DNA of 52,154 nt from Verrucomicrobiota bacterium (GTDB lineage Bacteria > Verrucomicrobiota > Verrucomicrobiia > Limisphaerales > UBA8199), in assembly GCA_029974925.1 (NCBI GenBank), contig JARKQH010000017.1, forward strand, positions 1 to 52,154. The letters run 5' to 3'. Position 1 is the stretch's first letter; each line of letters begins with the position of its first letter. Shown here piece by piece: positions 30,799 to 37,487 of this stretch. The translations under genes were made by a program, and so were the position numbers. A model generated the notes under the pieces. That model was not told the origin of the DNA. It ran no database searches and saw only the letters and a list, made by a program, of their open reading frames with translations.

Positions 30799-33597
30799 TC
30801 AGCGGGCGTGCTCGGCGGCCGCGGGAAGGTCGTGCAGCGGCGGGCTGTCGAGCGCCTGACGGACCAACTGCGCCAACTGAAGCGGGAAATAGGGTTTGGG
30901 CAGGAAGAAGGCCCCCGGCTGGCTGAACTCGGCGCCCATGATTTCCGCGCTGTAACCGCTGGTGTAGATCACGCGCAGGGCGGGATTGCGGCGCTTGAGT
31001 TGGGTGGCGAGTTCAATGCCGCTCATGCCTTCAGGCATCACCATGTCCGTGAGCAGCAAATCAATTTCGCCATTGAACTCGTCCCAAAGGCGGAGGGCTT
31101 CAACGCCGGTGCCGGCTTCCACAACCCGGTAATGGTGTTGTTTGAGGACCTCGCGCACCAATTCACGAAGCACAGCCTCGTCTTCAACCACCAGGACCGT
31201 TTCGGTGCCGCCGCGCACGGTTTCGGTGAAGGGCGGCGCCGTGTCGTGAGACGGCTGCTCGTCCGCCGCCACGGCGGGAAGATAGATGTCGAAGGTGGAG
31301 CCGACGTTCACCTCGCTGGTGACTTCGATCCAGCCCTGGTGTTGGGTGACGATGCCGTAAACGGTTGCCAAACCCAGACCCGTGCCTTTGCCGACTTCCT
31401 TGGTCGAGAAGAACGGCTCGAAAATGCGCTCGAGGGTTTTGCGGTCCATGCCGCAGCCGGTGTCGGCGACGCGGAGGCGAACGAAGTGGCCGGGGCGAGC
31501 CTCCGGGCGTTGACTGGCGTAGTCCTCGGAGATGGTGACGCCGGCGGTGCTAATGTGGAGTTTGCCGCCTTTGGGCATGGCATCGCGGGCATTGACGGCG
31601 AGGTTCATGATGACCTGCTCGATCATGCCGGTATCGGCCTCGATGCGGGCCAGGTTGCGGGCGCAGGTGGTTTCCAGGGTGATGTGCTCGCCCAGGAGGC
31701 GGAGGAGCATTTTGGCGATGTTCTGCAGGACGGTGTTGAGGTCAAGCAGTTTCGGCTGGATCACCTGCCTGCGGCTGAACATCAGGAGCTGGCGCGTGAG
31801 CGCGGCGGCCCGCTGCGCGGCTTCGGATATTTGGCGCAGAGCCGAGGCGGTGTTCGGGTCGTGACGGCAGCGGGAAAGCAGGGTTTCGGAGTAGCCCTGG
31901 ATGACGGTCAGCACGTTGTTGAAGTCGTGCGCCACCCCGGCGGCCAGTTGCCCAACCGATTCAAGTTTTTGCGCATGGCGGAACTGAGCCTCCAGGTTGA
32001 GCATGTCGGTGACGTCCGCCCCATAACAATGGACGACCTGGCTGCCGACGACGGGGAAGAAGGACCACACCAGGGTCCGCCCCTCGACGGTGACCTCCTC
32101 GCGGAGGCGTTTGGCGCCGGTGGCAATACATTCGCGAACGATGGCGGGGGCGTTGGCCGGAAGGATGGACAGCACGTCCTCGCGGCCCAAGGACCGGGCG
32201 GTTTCGCGCGCGGCCTCGTTGGCATACGACAGGGTACCGTCCCCGGCGAATTCCAGGACGGGATTGGGGTTGACCTGCGGGAACGCGGCGAGTTTTTGGA
32301 TTTGCAGCTCAGCGGTCTTGCGGTCGGTGATGTCCGTCAAAGTGCCGGAGACGCCGGGACTTCCCTCCCGGGCGTCGTGAGTGGGTTGAAGATAGGCCTC
32401 GACCCAGCGGAACTTGCCGTCGCGGGTCAGCAGGCGGGTTTCGTAGCGGCAGTATTCCAGTTTGCCTTGGAGCAGCTCGATGAACACATGCCGGTCGTGT
32501 TCGCGGTCTTCCGGATGGATAAAGTCCACAAACAGCGACCCCAGAGTGGTTTCCACCTCGAAACCGGTGACGTTGGTCCAGGCCGGGTTCAGGAAGGCCC
32601 AGTTTCCGAAATTGTCCAACTGGAAGATGACCTCTTTGATGTTTTCGACCACCGACCGGTATTTGCTTTCGCTGGCGTCGAGGGCCTGCTCCGAGCGTTT
32701 GCGTTCGATGCAGGAGGCCAGGTTGGTGGCGACCGACGCCATTTCCTGAAGGATTTGCTGGGAAAGCGCATGACGGGTGAAGATGGACATCAGGCCGATC
32801 AGTTTGTCCTCAAGGACCAGGGGGCAGGCCGCGTAGGAAACCAGCCCTTCCCGGCGGGCCCATTCGCCATCGGACAGGCGCGAATCGGTGGCCAGGTCCC
32901 GGATCAGGACGGGCACGCCGCGGACGAGGGATTCGATGTCAAGTTTGACAGCGGGGAGGCTCGCCGCCGCGCCGCCGCTCTCCCAGAGGCAGCCGGCAGT
33001 GGCACGCGGTTCGAGGGCTTGCTGGCGGGGATCGAAGATCTCGATGCGCGCCAGGGCAGCGTTGAGGTATTGGGCCATGGCCCGGGCGCACTGCGCCAGG
33101 ATGCTGTCGAGAGAATCCCGGCGGGTGAGGGCCAGGCCGAATTCCGCGCCAAAGGCGGCGAGGCGGGCCTGTTCAAACGCAGCCTGGGCGGCGGCGCGTT
33201 TGCGCTGGACGGCGTAGCGGACACTGCGCTCGAGGGTGCGCGCCTGTAATTCGGCCTTGACGAGATAGTCGTCCGCCCCGGCGCGCATGGCTTCCAGGTC
33301 CACCAGATGCTGGGAGGAGCCGGTCAGGAGGATGATGGGAGCCTGGCAGCCGTGGGCGATGGCCTCGCGCAAGAGCTCGACCCCGTTGCGGGCGCCGAGG
33401 CGATAGTCCAGAAGCACCACATCATGCTCATTGCGGATCATGGCCGCGAGGCCGGCTTCGAAGGTCTTGACCCACTCCAGGGTGAATCGCTGGCCGGAAA
33501 TCTCCGCGAACAGTTCCCGCGTGATGATATAGTCGTCCTCGTCGTCCTCGACGAGCAGGACTCGCACGGTGCCCAATTGGAACATGACAGTATCCAT
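30799..33597 (-). CDS. Hybrid histidine kinase: REC-GAF-PAS-PAS-HisKA-HATPase-REC
   Basis: 932 residues, no membrane segment, so cytoplasmic. The start is ATG 33597, with GGGGGGA 5 bases before it. Order: receiver 1 (~10-130, phospho-acceptor Asp64 in VVLLDYRLG), GAF (~150-300), PAS (~312-430), PAS-like (~435-535), HisKA with the phospho-His557 in [13 protein letters not shown], HATPase with the N-box [11 protein letters not shown] and G-boxes DTGCGMD and [13 protein letters not shown], and receiver 2 (~796-925, Asp851 in LLLTDMVMP). HDFNN kinases of this kind often act at the end of phosphorelays. It starts 10 bases after the stand-alone receiver gene, in one operon with the membrane kinase upstream. 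No DNA-binding domain is present anywhere in the operon. Confidence 0.92.
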
Positions 33598-33607
33598 GAT
33601 TCCCCCC

Positions 33608-34057
33608 TCAGACTTTTGGCAGTTCCACGCTCTGAAACCAGTATTGGTCAATGATGCGCATGACCTTGACCAGCGCTTCAAACTGGAACGGTTTGGTGAT
33701 AAAGGAATTGGCGCCCAGGTCGTAGAGCGCGCCGATGTCCGTGTCCGCATTGCTCGTGGTGAGGATCACCACCGGAATCCGGCGCAAGTCGGGATGCCCT
33801 TTGATTTCGCGCAAGGCTTCGCGGCCGTCTTTGAGCGGCATGTTGAGGTCCAACAGAATGAGATGGGGCCGGGGGGCGGCGGCCGCCTCGAGGTATCGGC
33901 CGCGGCGCAGCAGGTAATCCATCAGTTCTTCGCCGTTTTCGACAAAACGCAGGTCGCTCTCGGCGCGGGACTCCTGCAGCGCATCGCCGGCCAGCAGCCG
34001 GTCGTCGGCATCGTCGTCGGCCATCAGGATAACCTTCTTGCTGGGGACCGGGGTCAC
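33608..34057 (-). CDS. Stand-alone receiver protein (Rcp1-like response regulator)
   Basis: 149 residues, a single receiver domain: the acidic pocket ADDDADDR (13-20), phospho-acceptor Asp70 in LILLDLNMP, Thr in VVILTTSN, and Lys in FITKPF. The pattern ADDDxDDR plus GEELMDYLLRRGRY is typical of the Rcp1 type, which receives phosphate from phytochrome-like kinases. It has no output domain, so it passes phosphate on or binds a target. Its ATG overlaps the stop of the sensor kinase by 4 bases (ATGA), and the hybrid kinase begins 10 bases after it. Confidence 0.92.
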   Translation of the reverse strand: MTPVPSKKVILMADDDADDRLLAGDALQESRAESDLRFVENGEELMDYLLRRGRYLEAAAAPRPHLILLDLNMPLKDGREALREIKGHPDLRRIPVVILTTSNADTDIGALYDLGANSFITKPFQFEALVKVMRIIDQYWFQSVELPKV

Positions 34058-35742
34058 GGCTTGGCGGGGCGATGGTTCTGTTTGACGGGAAGCGTGACAA
34101 TGAACGTGGCGCCCTGGCCGGGCTGGCTGCGGGCCACGATGGTGCCGCTGTGACGGTCGGTGATGCGGCGGCAGACGGCCAGTCCCACGCCGGTGCCTTC
34201 ATACTCAGTGCGGCCATGAAGGCGCTGGAACACCGCGAAAATGCGGTCCACGTATTTTTCGTCGAAACCGATGCCATTGTCCTGGATGGTCAGTTCGCAC
34301 AATTCGGCGCCGGATACGGCGGTCAGCAGGCGGCTGGTGATTTTGACACAGGGCTTGGCGCCAGGCGGTTGAAACTTGAGGGCATTCCCGATCAGGTTCA
34401 GGAGGAGCTGGCGCATCTGCATGGCATCGGCCTCGATGGTGGGCAGCGGGCCGACCTCGACGGTGGCGCCGCTTTTCTCGATGCGCACCTCCAGGTCGCC
34501 CAGGACCTCGCGGGTGACCACGTTGAGGTCCACGGGAGCGAAGGGCTCGGTGCTGCGAATGGCGCGGGAAAAGGTGAGCAGATCGTTGATCAAGGTGCGC
34601 ATGCGGGCCGAAGCGCTGTGCATGCGGTCGAGATAATCCTGGGCCTCGGGCGGGAGCAGGCCGTCACACTTTCCGCGCAGGCGGTCGCCAAAAGCCTGGA
34701 TTTTGCGCAGCGGTTCCTGGAGGTCGTGGGAAGCCACAAAGGCGAACTGCTCGAGTTCGGCGTTGGACCGCGCCAGTTCCGCCGCCTTTTGGGACAGTGT
34801 TTCCTCGACCCGCTTGCGCTCGGTGATGTCCTTGAAGACCAGCACGGACCCCACCACGCGCCCCATTTCGTTAATGGCGGTGCGGACGTATTCGACCGGA
34901 AAGCAGGTGCCATCCTTGCGGTAGAAGATGGTTTCCGCGGCTCCGTCGCGGAGTGTGCCATCCGCGTTGCCCCGGGCTGGACGGCCAAAAATCTCGGCCT
35001 CGGTTTTCCCAATGAGCTCGCTGAGGGGCAGGCCGGTGGCCCGGGCCACTGCCGGGTTGACGAAGGTGGCTTTGCCTTCGATATCAAAGCCGCAGATGCC
35101 TTCACCGGCGGCGTTGAGAATCATTTCATAAAGCCGCTGGAGCTTTTGGAGCTCCTGGGTGCGCGCCTGAACGTGAAGTTCAAGGACGCTCTTGGAGCTT
35201 TCCAATTCCTGGCGTTTTTGGGCCAGGGCTTTTTCCGTGCGGGTGCGTTTGTCCAACTCCTCCTGGAGAGCTGTTTTGGCCGCGGTCAGTTTGGCGACCT
35301 GGGCCTCGAGTTCCAGTTGGGCGGCCTGGGCCTGCTCGCGAGCGCGCCGGGCGTCCGCCAGTTGGTTTTGCGTCTGGACCAGTTCCGATTCCATCTGGCG
35401 GGACTGCCGGTCCAGGCACTCGGACAGGCGCCGGCGCCAGAGCGCATGGAGGAACAAAAAGGAAGTGAGAGAACCGGCGCCAGCCAGGGCTGCGGCGCTG
35501 GCAATCCGGCCCATGGAATAGTCTATATGGGTAACCAGAGCCCCGGCGACCTCCCGCCCCGCTGCGGGTGAAGTGGCTTCGCGATGGAGCACGCGCTGCC
35601 CATCCCAGCACAGCCAAAGGCTCAAGCCGACGGTGGCCAAAACCACCAAGGCGCACACCGTGACCGCGCGCCGGGAGTCCGTCAATAACCGGTCTCCGGC
35701 TGATACCGCATTTTCCGCTGTCCAAGTAGCGGTTGTATTCAT
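34054..35742 (-). CDS. Membrane sensor histidine kinase with coiled coil and PAS domain
   Basis: 562 residues. Two membrane helices (about 26-46 and 77-101) enclose a short periplasmic loop of ~30 residues. A long charged coiled coil follows (105-205), then PAS (~203-315), HisKA with phospho-His339 in FVASHDLQEPLRKIQ, and HATPase with the N-box NLIGNALKF, the G1-box QDNGIGFDE and G2-box GTGVGLAVC. This arrangement and the SHDLQEPL box match kinases that pair with Rcp1-type receivers. The small loop makes a direct periplasmic ligand unlikely; sensing is more likely by PAS. First gene of a three-gene operon, coupled by ATGA to the receiver. Confidence 0.93.
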   Translation of the reverse strand: MNTTATWTAENAVSAGDRLLTDSRRAVTVCALVVLATVGLSLWLCWDGQRVLHREATSPAAGREVAGALVTHIDYSMGRIASAAALAGAGSLTSFLFLHALWRRRLSECLDRQSRQMESELVQTQNQLADARRAREQAQAAQLELEAQVAKLTAAKTALQEELDKRTRTEKALAQKRQELESSKSVLELHVQARTQELQKLQRLYEMILNAAGEGICGFDIEGKATFVNPAVARATGLPLSELIGKTEAEIFGRPARGNADGTLRDGAAETIFYRKDGTCFPVEYVRTAINEMGRVVGSVLVFKDITERKRVEETLSQKAAELARSNAELEQFAFVASHDLQEPLRKIQAFGDRLRGKCDGLLPPEAQDYLDRMHSASARMRTLINDLLTFSRAIRSTEPFAPVDLNVVTREVLGDLEVRIEKSGATVEVGPLPTIEADAMQMRQLLLNLIGNALKFQPPGAKPCVKITSRLLTAVSGAELCELTIQDNGIGFDEKYVDRIFAVFQRLHGRTEYEGTGVGLAVCRRITDRHSGTIVARSQPGQGATFIVTLPVKQNHRPAKP

Positions 35743-35963
35743 TTGTTTCGTTCCAACCCGGCGGGCACCCGGGGCGACGCCCTACCCAAACGGGGCGAAA
35801 TCGTTTCCAATAGAGCACGGAACAGGCCAACTCAGCGGTGAGAACGGATGGCGCAAGTAATTCGACCGCTTCGAATTGTCCCAGGAACGGGGAGCGGTTG
35901 TTGACCCGCCCGGAGGGTCAGGCAAAACCGGCAGTTCCGGTCCAGCCCAGTCGTTTTCAACGG

Positions 35964-35992
35964 TTTACAACGAAACATTTTTGTCGTCTAAT
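35964..35992 (+). promoter_or_regulatory. Sigma-70-like promoter for lpxI
   Basis: TTTACA (35964-35969) and TCTAAT (35987-35992) are separated by exactly 17 bases, with an AT-rich spacer. Each hexamer has five of six consensus matches. Transcription would start near 36000, about 125 bases before the lpxI ATG. The remaining part of 35743-36124 shows no gene; an open frame through it has no protein-like content. Confidence 0.5.
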
Positions 35993-36124
35993 GAGGCAGA
36001 TGTGTCCAGGATTTCACAGTTCGGCGGACCCGTCCACGAGCCGGATAGACCGCCCGCATGTTTGCCAGACTCACCGGCAACAGCCCGGTGGGAAAGCCTC
36101 CGGCAGCCTTTCTGCCGAGCTGAC

Positions 36125-36964
36125 ATGAGCCCCGTGCCCGACAGCCTGGGGATTATCGCGGGCAGCCGTTCCTTGCCGCTGCTCCTGGCCCGGCAGGCCC
36201 GCGCCATGGGCATCCGGCGGATCGTGGCGGCAGCCTTCGAGAACGAGACGGACCCCGCGCTGGGGGAACTGGTAGATGACATTGAGTGGCTCAAGGTCGG
36301 TCAGCTTTCAAAACTGATTGCCGTTTTCACGCGGCGGGGGGTGAAACAATGCGTGATGGCGGGGCAGATTGCGCCCCGGAACCTGTTCGACCTGAGGCCG
36401 GACCTGCGGGCGATGACGCTGTTGTGGCGTCTGAAAGAAAAGAACGCGCACACGGTGTTTGGGGCGATAGTCGAGGAGCTGCGCAAGGAGGGGGTTGAGG
36501 TGATTGAAGCCCGCCCGTGGCTCGGGCCCCTGATGCCGGGCAAAGGTTTTCGCCTCGGGCCCAAGCCCGTCGAGGCCCAGGAGGCCGACGTGGCTTTTGG
36601 CTTCCGGATCGCCAAAGAGCTGGCGCGGCTGGACATTGGGCAGACCGTGGTGGTCAAGAATGGCACAGTGCTGGCCGTCGAGGGTTTCGAGGGGACAGAC
36701 CAATGCCTGGCCCGCGGCGGCACCCTGGCCGGGCGGGAGGGGGGCGCCGTGGCCGTGAAAGTGACCAAGCCCGACCACGATTTCCGATTCGACATTCCGT
36801 GCCTGGGTCCGCAAACATTGGAGACGTGCGCCGCGTCCGGGGTGGCTGTGCTGGCGTTCGAGGCCGGACGTTCGCTCTTGCTGGAGCCGGAGATTTGCGA
36901 GACGCTGGCGCGGAAGAACAAGATTTCAGTCATCGCCGCCGATTACGGCGGCGCCAAAGAATAA
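36125..36964 (+). CDS. lpxI: UDP-2,3-diacylglucosamine pyrophosphatase LpxI
   Basis: 279 residues, cytoplasmic. LpxI (DUF1009) hydrolyses UDP-2,3-diacylglucosamine to lipid X and UMP, the fourth step of lipid A synthesis, in bacteria that lack LpxH. The start ATG 36125 was chosen because the domain begins at once: LGIIAGSRSLPLLLARQA. Other family marks are RGVKQCVMAGQI, FGFRIAKELARLDIGQTVVV, and GTVLAVEGFEGTDQCLARGG containing the catalytic Asp. The end ASGVAVLAFEAGRSLLLE is also typical. The protein implies an outer membrane with lipopolysaccharide. Followed after 22 bases by a conserved gene of unknown function. The open frame upstream of 36125 lies in the leader. Confidence 0.93.
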   Translation: MSPVPDSLGIIAGSRSLPLLLARQARAMGIRRIVAAAFENETDPALGELVDDIEWLKVGQLSKLIAVFTRRGVKQCVMAGQIAPRNLFDLRPDLRAMTLLWRLKEKNAHTVFGAIVEELRKEGVEVIEARPWLGPLMPGKGFRLGPKPVEAQEADVAFGFRIAKELARLDIGQTVVVKNGTVLAVEGFEGTDQCLARGGTLAGREGGAVAVKVTKPDHDFRFDIPCLGPQTLETCAASGVAVLAFEAGRSLLLEPEICETLARKNKISVIAADYGGAKE

Positions 36965-36986
36965 TTCGCGATCGCGATTTCGAGCC

Positions 36987-37487
36987 ATGCTAACTTCACA
37001 CGAACTGCTTGGATTCATGTCGCCGAACCTGGCGCAGGAAATCATTTTATACGCTTACGAAGAGGACAAACCGCTCTACAAGACCACGCTGGCGGCGGTG
37101 GCGGAAGCGCGCAAGCTGCGCCCCGTGTACTTCGAGCGGCAGCCGCGGACCCAGCGTCACGCGGCCATGCTCACAACCCTGACGCGTCCCGCGCTGGAAA
37201 TGGTGACGGCCAACCTGATTCGCACCTGGCTGCTGAAGAAACATAACGGGCTGCTGACGGATTTCCTCGACAGTCTCGGCATTCAGCACAAGGAGGGAGT
37301 CGTGGATGACCTCCCGGAAACCATGGAGGAGGAGAAGCTGCGCCAGGCGGTGGACGGATTGCTGGCCAAACACCCCCCCGAGGTGGTGGCGGTGTACCTG
37401 AACGCGTTCCAAGACATGAACGAAGTGGAGTGGCCCGCCCTTAAGAACATGCTCCAGAGCGACCCCCGGCTGCAACTGGGCGGCTAG
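36987..37487 (+). CDS. Conserved protein of unknown function downstream of lpxI
   Basis: 166 residues, no signal peptide or membrane segment; predicted helical. It starts 22 bases after lpxI on the same strand and is probably in its transcript. Notable segments are FMSPNLAQEIILYAYEED, RHAAMLTTLTRPALEM, FLDSLGIQHKEGVVDDLP, and the C-terminal VAVYLNAFQDMNEVEWP followed by DPRLQLGG. The pattern looks like an old, well-kept family in this phylum, but I cannot assign a domain or function. The linkage to lipid A synthesis may be coincidental. Confidence 0.8.
   Translation: MLTSHELLGFMSPNLAQEIILYAYEEDKPLYKTTLAAVAEARKLRPVYFERQPRTQRHAAMLTTLTRPALEMVTANLIRTWLLKKHNGLLTDFLDSLGIQHKEGVVDDLPETMEEEKLRQAVDGLLAKHPPEVVAVYLNAFQDMNEVEWPALKNMLQSDPRLQLGG

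Follow-up and report, generated by a model that had tools for sequence, protein, structure and literature searches.

We analyzed a 52,154-nucleotide contig of a Verrucomicrobiota bacterium (GenBank assembly GCA_029974925.1, contig JARKQH010000017.1, UBA8199 lineage), hereafter the window, and focused on a three-gene signalling operon on its reverse strand. The membrane histidine kinase HK1 is followed by the single-domain response regulator RR and then by a hybrid histidine kinase, all tightly packed; the hybrid carries a receiver at each end (REC1 and REC2) and a kinase core, HK2 (Table 1). A sequence-only reading of this DNA had named His339, Asp70, Asp64, His557 and Asp851 as the phospho-sites of the set, and every one of these residues lies where that reading placed it. 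Its 10-base gap between RR and the hybrid is likewise correct; the overlap of HK1 and RR, given as ATGA, is actually GTGA because the RR gene has a GTG start. The open frame of the hybrid extends to 33750, and we took the ATG at 33597 as its start because the 10-base gap fits, GAGGGGGGAATC precedes it, and relatives agree.

Pfam recovers PAS, HisKA and HATPase on HK1, one receiver on RR, and two receivers, GAF, PAS, HisKA and HATPase on the hybrid. The proposed REC-GAF-PAS-PAS-HK-REC layout of the hybrid is thereby borne out except for the second PAS (residues ~440-528), which has no Pfam match at E<=0.001; in an AlphaFold2 model of the hybrid (mean pLDDT 74.9, pTM 0.33), the order of strands and helices in this region is PAS-like. 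In the same model, the helix leaving REC1 continues as residues 119-158 into the GAF domain. At the N-terminus of HK1, ~35 residues separate two hydrophobic stretches. The best structural match of RR is Rcp1 (1jlk/1i3c, E 3e-32), over residues 5-148, its whole length.

Table 1. Features of the three-gene locus and its divergent neighbour, in window coordinates.
Feature	Position	Strand	Details
HK1, membrane histidine kinase	34054..35742	-	562 aa; two hydrophobic segments, long helix, PAS, HisKA, HATPase
HK1 PAS	34810-35133	-	
HK1 HisKA	34561-34755	-	contains His339
HK1 HATPase	34081-34428	-	
RR, Rcp1-type single-domain response regulator	33608..34057	-	149 aa; Asp70; docking code D18, D19, D25
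Hybrid histidine kinase REC1-GAF-PAS-PAS-HK2-REC2	30799..33597	-	932 aa
REC1, N-terminal receiver of hybrid	33247..33567	-	Asp64; docking code D21, D22, E28, like RR; proposed second HK1 target
GAF of hybrid	32698..33111	-	continuous helix to REC1 (residues 119-158, model)
PAS domain 1 of hybrid	32323..32658	-	Pfam
PAS-like domain 2 of hybrid	32014..32280	-	model only
HK2, CckA-like HisKA-HATPase core of hybrid	31267..32010	-	His557
REC2, C-terminal receiver of hybrid	30856..31191	-	Asp851; docking code V, L, E, unlike RR and REC1
LpxI-like gene	35876..36964	+	divergent neighbour; open frame as listed; NCBIfam match starts at ~residue 91

All 12 of the close relatives examined carry HK1, RR and the hybrid in identical order, which places the gene set far beyond chance, and in each of them the RR domain match begins 21-24 bases after the HK1 stop. 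Across a collection of 124 triads, the Asp and Lys of RR are kept in 124/124, as are those of REC1, whose Thr/Ser is kept in 123/124; the HK1 His is present in all 120 aligned and the REC2 Asp in 71/72. The absence of a DNA-binding output, also noted in the sequence-only reading, holds for the operon and for its neighbours in the 12 close relatives: a domain scan (seeds from the window's genome, Pfam-checked) found no GerE, OmpR-type or NtrC-type regulator adjoining the operon there. The nearest DNA-binding regulators lie ~5 kb off in L047, where an OmpR-type gene has a kinase of its own, and ~8 kb off in L042, where the gene is NtrC-type.

Covariation of HK1 with RR and REC1

The co-evolution check that the earlier reading had proposed was run on 120 triads, the 4 triads without an aligned HK1 His being dropped. 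Positions in HK1 and HK2 are counted from the phospho-histidine (H+n), and those in the receivers from the second of the acidic residues that end strand 1. Mutual information linked HK1 H+19, H+34 and H+7 with RR +10, +3 and +4, and with the identical positions in REC1; the H+7 signal was present in only part of the mutual-information tables. No comparable set emerged among the 120 triads for REC2, nor for HK2 with RR or REC1. The published specificity residue T250 of EnvZ is presumably H+7, if its phospho-histidine is H243. Published work places the covarying receiver residues mostly along a single face of helix 1 (PMC2991266).

Charges at these positions oppose one another. HK1 H+19 and RR +10 carry opposite charges in 86 triads and like charges in 3 (86/89; after-the-fact Fisher value 1e-21), and HK1 H+19 and REC1 +10 in 69 and 4, respectively (69/73; 4e-16, likewise after the fact). 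The corresponding comparison with REC2 +10 gave 15 opposite and 9 alike among 69 hybrids (Fisher 0.4), so that HK1 covaries with RR and REC1, not with REC2. For HK2, opposite and like charges numbered 15 and 13 with RR, and 10 and 11 with REC1. The signs of HK1, RR and REC1 flip jointly, reading plus/minus/minus in 39/120 triads and minus/plus/plus in 27/120. At locus L108, from a second phylum that is probably Desulfobacterota (its contig is labelled Syntrophobacterales), RR shares 62% identity with the window's RR and the HK1 helix is similar, yet all three charges are reversed.

As an ancestry control, RR and REC1 of one operon were compared at each position against shuffled partners. Identity reached 70/119 at +3 (19.9 shuffled), 66 at +10 (23.7), 60 at +6 (21.2), 113 at +4 (97.9) and 67 at +1 (37.1), with weaker excesses at +9, +13, +14 and +7. 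The match at +3, +4, +6 and +10 corresponds to z 7-12, and the stretches around the Asp, Thr and Lys sites have a median z of 0; comparing RR or REC1 with REC2 gave nothing above z 2.3. Within an operon, RR and REC1 agree only at the start of helix 1 and on its docking side, and operon ancestry alone is insufficient to explain this because the match is confined to one side of the helix. The draft of the window's genome spans 5.7 Mb and gives 93 matches to receivers and 7 to HPt domains. Of the 93 receivers, ~73 were read (75 rows: 62 by script, 11 by eye, and 2 that repeat genes already covered through an overlapping locus), and among these only RR and REC1 carry the D, D, acidic docking code. 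The HK1 counterparts of the code are R346, R373 and K358.

Taken together, these patterns point to a forked kinase-to-kinase switch, which we judge probable: HK1 would phosphorylate both RR and REC1, and REC1 would control the CckA-like HK2. The sequence-only reading had guessed that the first kinase could target the hybrid's N-terminal receiver, and the covariation and matched docking face, both sequence evidence, support that guess. It had also called the set a complete phosphorelay. We rejected that description, as the evidence favors a fork with two matched receivers and neither an HPt nor a terminal regulator is encoded at the locus. An alternative is a linear relay, in which HK1 phosphorylates RR only, phospho-RR docks on the hybrid and alters its kinase, as DivK does with DivL-CckA, and REC1 is phosphorylated otherwise. 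There is precedent for a single-domain receiver that acts on a kinase of CckA type (PMC9430884, PMC12471899), HK2 is CckA-like, and RR is fused to the hybrid in 4/100 surveyed loci (see below). However, the docking positions of HK1 covary with REC1 as well, REC1 and RR resemble each other on the docking face alone, and HK2-RR covariation is absent; we regard such a relay as unlikely.

In the forked switch, of which we infer the phosphotransfer, the sign of HK2 control and the exit from REC2, HK1 would take up its signal with the membrane part or the PAS domain, autophosphorylate on His339, and pass the phosphoryl group to RR (Asp70) and REC1 (Asp64), which would share one docking surface. Phospho-REC1 may then alter HK2 (His557) activity through the continuous helix leaving REC1, with the GAF and PAS domains of the hybrid supplying putative cytoplasmic inputs. 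HK2 would in turn phosphorylate the attached REC2 (Asp851), which could hand over to an HPt protein or a partner encoded elsewhere. RR may compete with REC1 for HK1, work by protein contact, or do both. None of the seven HPt matches elsewhere in the window's genome is tied to the operon by any evidence. The same genome has 0 matches to ChpT-type proteins (PF10090; Caulobacter control positive), which makes an HPt protein or direct contact the more likely exit. One of the seven HPt matches falls in a 141-aa frame (L162:1372-1797, contig C44 of this genome), a possible stand-alone phosphotransfer protein.

Several points weigh against the fork. The expected HK2-REC2 pair itself covaries weakly (9 opposite, 3 alike charged cells), so missing covariation proves nothing; HK2 covariation with REC2, RR and REC1 gave little and cannot name the HK2 target. 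The Fisher values are after the fact because the position pairs were found by scanning, and related sequences enter the charge counts many times. The support shrinks when events are counted, as edge-disjoint pairs with opposite HK1 charge number only 9. In these, RR shows 4 full reversals, 5 cases with one neutral side and none unchanged, and REC1 shows 4 full reversals, 3 cases with one neutral side, 1 with both neutral and 1 unchanged; in the pair L071 with L224, RR runs counter to the expected direction. A Fitch count yields 7 branches with an HK1 sign reversal, with the full opposite sign in RR on 3 and in REC1 on 2, and event-level support for the charge reversals is modest. The GAF and PAS domains of the hybrid sit between REC1 and HK2, unlike the arrangement in ExsG and LvrB (see below). 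Finally, RR needs no REC1, because a kinase and RR occur without it in 19/100 Verrucomicrobiota loci and 4/40 loci of the second phylum.

The 19 Verrucomicrobiota loci would also suit two independent systems, with HK1-RR as one pair and the hybrid as a separate signalling protein merely sharing the operon, and many hybrid kinases of the same core indeed lack RR (e.g. L049-L060). Against such independence stand the RR-hybrid fusions, the gene order kept in 12/12 relatives, and the matched docking faces, which make it very improbable.

Spread of the layout and its third gene

To place the operon in a wider family, RR was searched against 387 Verrucomicrobiota genomes (152 matching at E<=1e-12) and 297 genomes of the phylum of L108 (72 matching at E<=1e-25). 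From these, 100 and 40 loci were chosen among the matches listed, best first but not strictly, and scored on the best Rcp1-like receiver per locus; one group of 16 loci (group E) was selected because RR had already been seen there. A kinase lies upstream of RR in 84 of the 100 Verrucomicrobiota loci, a REC1-type receiver is present in 70 (adjoining in 66, fused in 4), and both occur in 65. In the second phylum, the corresponding counts are 31, 30 and 27 of 40. In a control set of 20 additional loci, taken from five genomes behind named contigs that are either related or distant, both features accompany 4/42 Rcp1-like receivers. Like layouts also appear in two named plasmid records: that of Paludisphaera borealis has a PAS kinase, then a response regulator and a hybrid kinase, and that of Deinococcus taeanensis a PAS protein, then a response regulator and a diguanylate cyclase. 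The layout was not found in a third record, that of Aquisphaera giovannonii.

In the four fused loci (L122, L124, L136 and L176), RR is joined to REC1-HK2-REC2, and the kinase match starts 2 residues past the REC1 match. RR and hybrid there form a single REC-REC-HK-REC protein directly behind a large PAS kinase.

The third slot, X, is interchangeable. By labels from single-sequence seeds, which give lower bounds, the 65 Verrucomicrobiota triads place a hybrid kinase in it 38 times, a kinase/PAS protein 9 times (2 more are cut by a contig end), SpoIIE 5 times, a HisKA_3 kinase 5 times, and EAL and GerE once each, with 4 unlabelled; the 27 second-phylum triads hold 7 hybrid kinases, 4 GGDEF with EAL, 3 GGDEF, 3 kinase/PAS (1 more cut), 2 NtrC and 7 unlabelled. 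Pfam identified SpoIIE (L118, L119), a histidine kinase (L135) and a hybrid (L108) behind REC1, and GAF-GGDEF in L116, a variant order. In a decoy model, REC1 would bind or drain HK1 without controlling HK2 and so give RR a threshold. A competitor would equally need a matched docking face, and the third gene is hardly more than a receiver in L320, L322, L324 and L115. However, third genes mostly bear enzymes behind REC1, the layout of controlled outputs, and the receivers of ExsG and LvrB do control these kinases; we hold a decoy to be highly improbable.

DNA-binding outputs do occur in the wider family, though not in the window's group. L252 has a NarL-type regulator as the third gene itself, L335 and L342 have an NtrC-type one, and in L197, L246 and L089 a NarL-type regulator is the fourth gene. 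The sequence-only reading had held that a DNA-binding regulator beside the operon in relatives would speak against its circuit; none is present in the 12 close relatives, and those of the wider family do not refute the circuit because they show the outputs of other versions. The window's genome also holds, at L140 (C97:1-4500), a row of PAS kinase, REC-HisKA_3 kinase, REC-GerE (NarL-type) regulator and further receiver, a kinase-to-kinase series that does end in a DNA-binding protein.

Rcp1-like receivers also occur in other settings. In the relative G388, about nine full-length copies lie in one 19-kb stretch (L291:5000-14900) and six in another contig (L292), and neither of the two kinase types searched for adjoins them. 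Matches number 59 in G388, 38 in G387 and 3 in the window's genome (10 candidates scored per genome there). At L004/L157 (C206, window's genome), a receiver joined to an adenylate/guanylate cyclase (PF00211) has a small receiver and a large PAS kinase as neighbours.

Next to the window's operon, the region 35876-37487 on the forward strand holds an LpxI-like gene, whose NCBIfam match is under the cut-off (113 vs 400 bits), and then a 166-aa gene with no NCBIfam match; both are kept beside the triad in relatives, and the triad is divergent from the LpxI-like gene in 7/11 relatives examined. The LpxI-like gene is at most a candidate associate of the circuit.

Relation to known two-component systems

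The closest tested precedent is BphP1-AgR-ExsG-ExsF of Rhizobium NT-26 and Agrobacterium (agp1-agR-exsG operon; PMC3899027, PMC1552090). BphP1 phosphorylates AgR and the ExsG receiver in vitro, and the phosphorylated receiver inhibits ExsG (PMC3899027). The two sets share the order of kinase, Rcp1/AgR-type receiver and receiver-headed kinase. They differ in that HK1 is not a bacteriophytochrome, having PAS, HisKA and HATPase by Pfam with no GAF or PHY; HK2 is a CckA-like HisKA (PF00512) plus HATPase_c core, whereas ExsG is HWE-type; the window's hybrid interposes GAF and PAS between receiver and kinase; and ExsF is separate, whereas REC2 is attached to the hybrid. No separate ExsF-like receiver lies beside the genes: on the window's contig (C150), a genome-wide receiver scan gave only the operon's three.

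In LvrA-LvrB, the second kinase LvrB has an N-terminal receiver, and phosphorylation of that receiver by an upstream kinase activates LvrB (PMC5863495, PMC13269768). A receiver-headed second kinase is common to both, and the active site of REC1 is intact. In kinases of the LvrB type, receiver helix 5 passes directly into the helix that leads to DHp; in the model of the window's hybrid it continues as residues 119-158, into GAF, and in loci such as L122, L124, L136 and L176 the kinase match starts 2 residues past REC1. LvrB is described there as Rec-DHp-CA, lacking GAF, PAS and a C-terminal receiver, and no Rcp1-type receiver is described between the LvrA and LvrB genes.

With the DivJ/PleC-DivK-DivL-CckA-ChpT-CtrA pathway, the operon shares a hybrid kinase of CckA type that has a single-domain receiver upstream, and HK2-REC2 scores best against CckA. 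By its described domain order, CckA has no N-terminal receiver (PMC9981736). The NCBIfam CckA models (NF046020, NF046026) gave 404.9 and 326.2 bits, short of the 1000-bit cut-off; with this cut-off unmet and no ChpT-type protein, we rejected orthology to CckA-ChpT-CtrA. A structure search with the whole hybrid model added matches to CckA and LvrB; the long multi-domain alignments of that search are uninformative (root-mean-square deviations of 20-60).

Among solved structures, RR is closest to Rcp1 and RcpA/RcpB, and the HK1 core to 8f71 and bacteriophytochrome kinases, which recalls Cph1-Rcp1 and other phytochrome kinase/Rcp1 pairs. Unlike these, HK1 has no bilin-binding module, and the window's set has a third protein.

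The kind of circuit is thus already known. As far as our searches reach, the CckA-like hybrid with attached REC2, the spread, the exchangeable slot and the matched docking faces are not described; for matched faces in two receivers of one operon, we found no description in the literature searched, a scope that takes in few subscription papers. There is perhaps an even chance that HK-Rcp1-type RR-REC1-X serves several phyla as a general plug-in splitter. Evolution would hold one kinase to two matched receivers, and the free one would set the share of signal reaching REC1. X would be freely exchanged among kinase, hybrid kinase, SpoIIE phosphatase, diguanylate cyclase, NtrC and NarL, and the hybrid-kinase version would stack two phosphotransfer tiers without a transcription factor. 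Such an operon needs no DNA-binding output, because its output slot holds another enzyme.

Two-component pathways are usually viewed as one kinase with one regulator; in this common layout, one kinase appears to be under selection for two receivers. The compensating charge reversals in both receivers may offer a sequence code to predict forks in genomes, and the triad would make a clean system in which to study the sharing of one kinase between a free single-domain receiver and an enzyme under receiver control.

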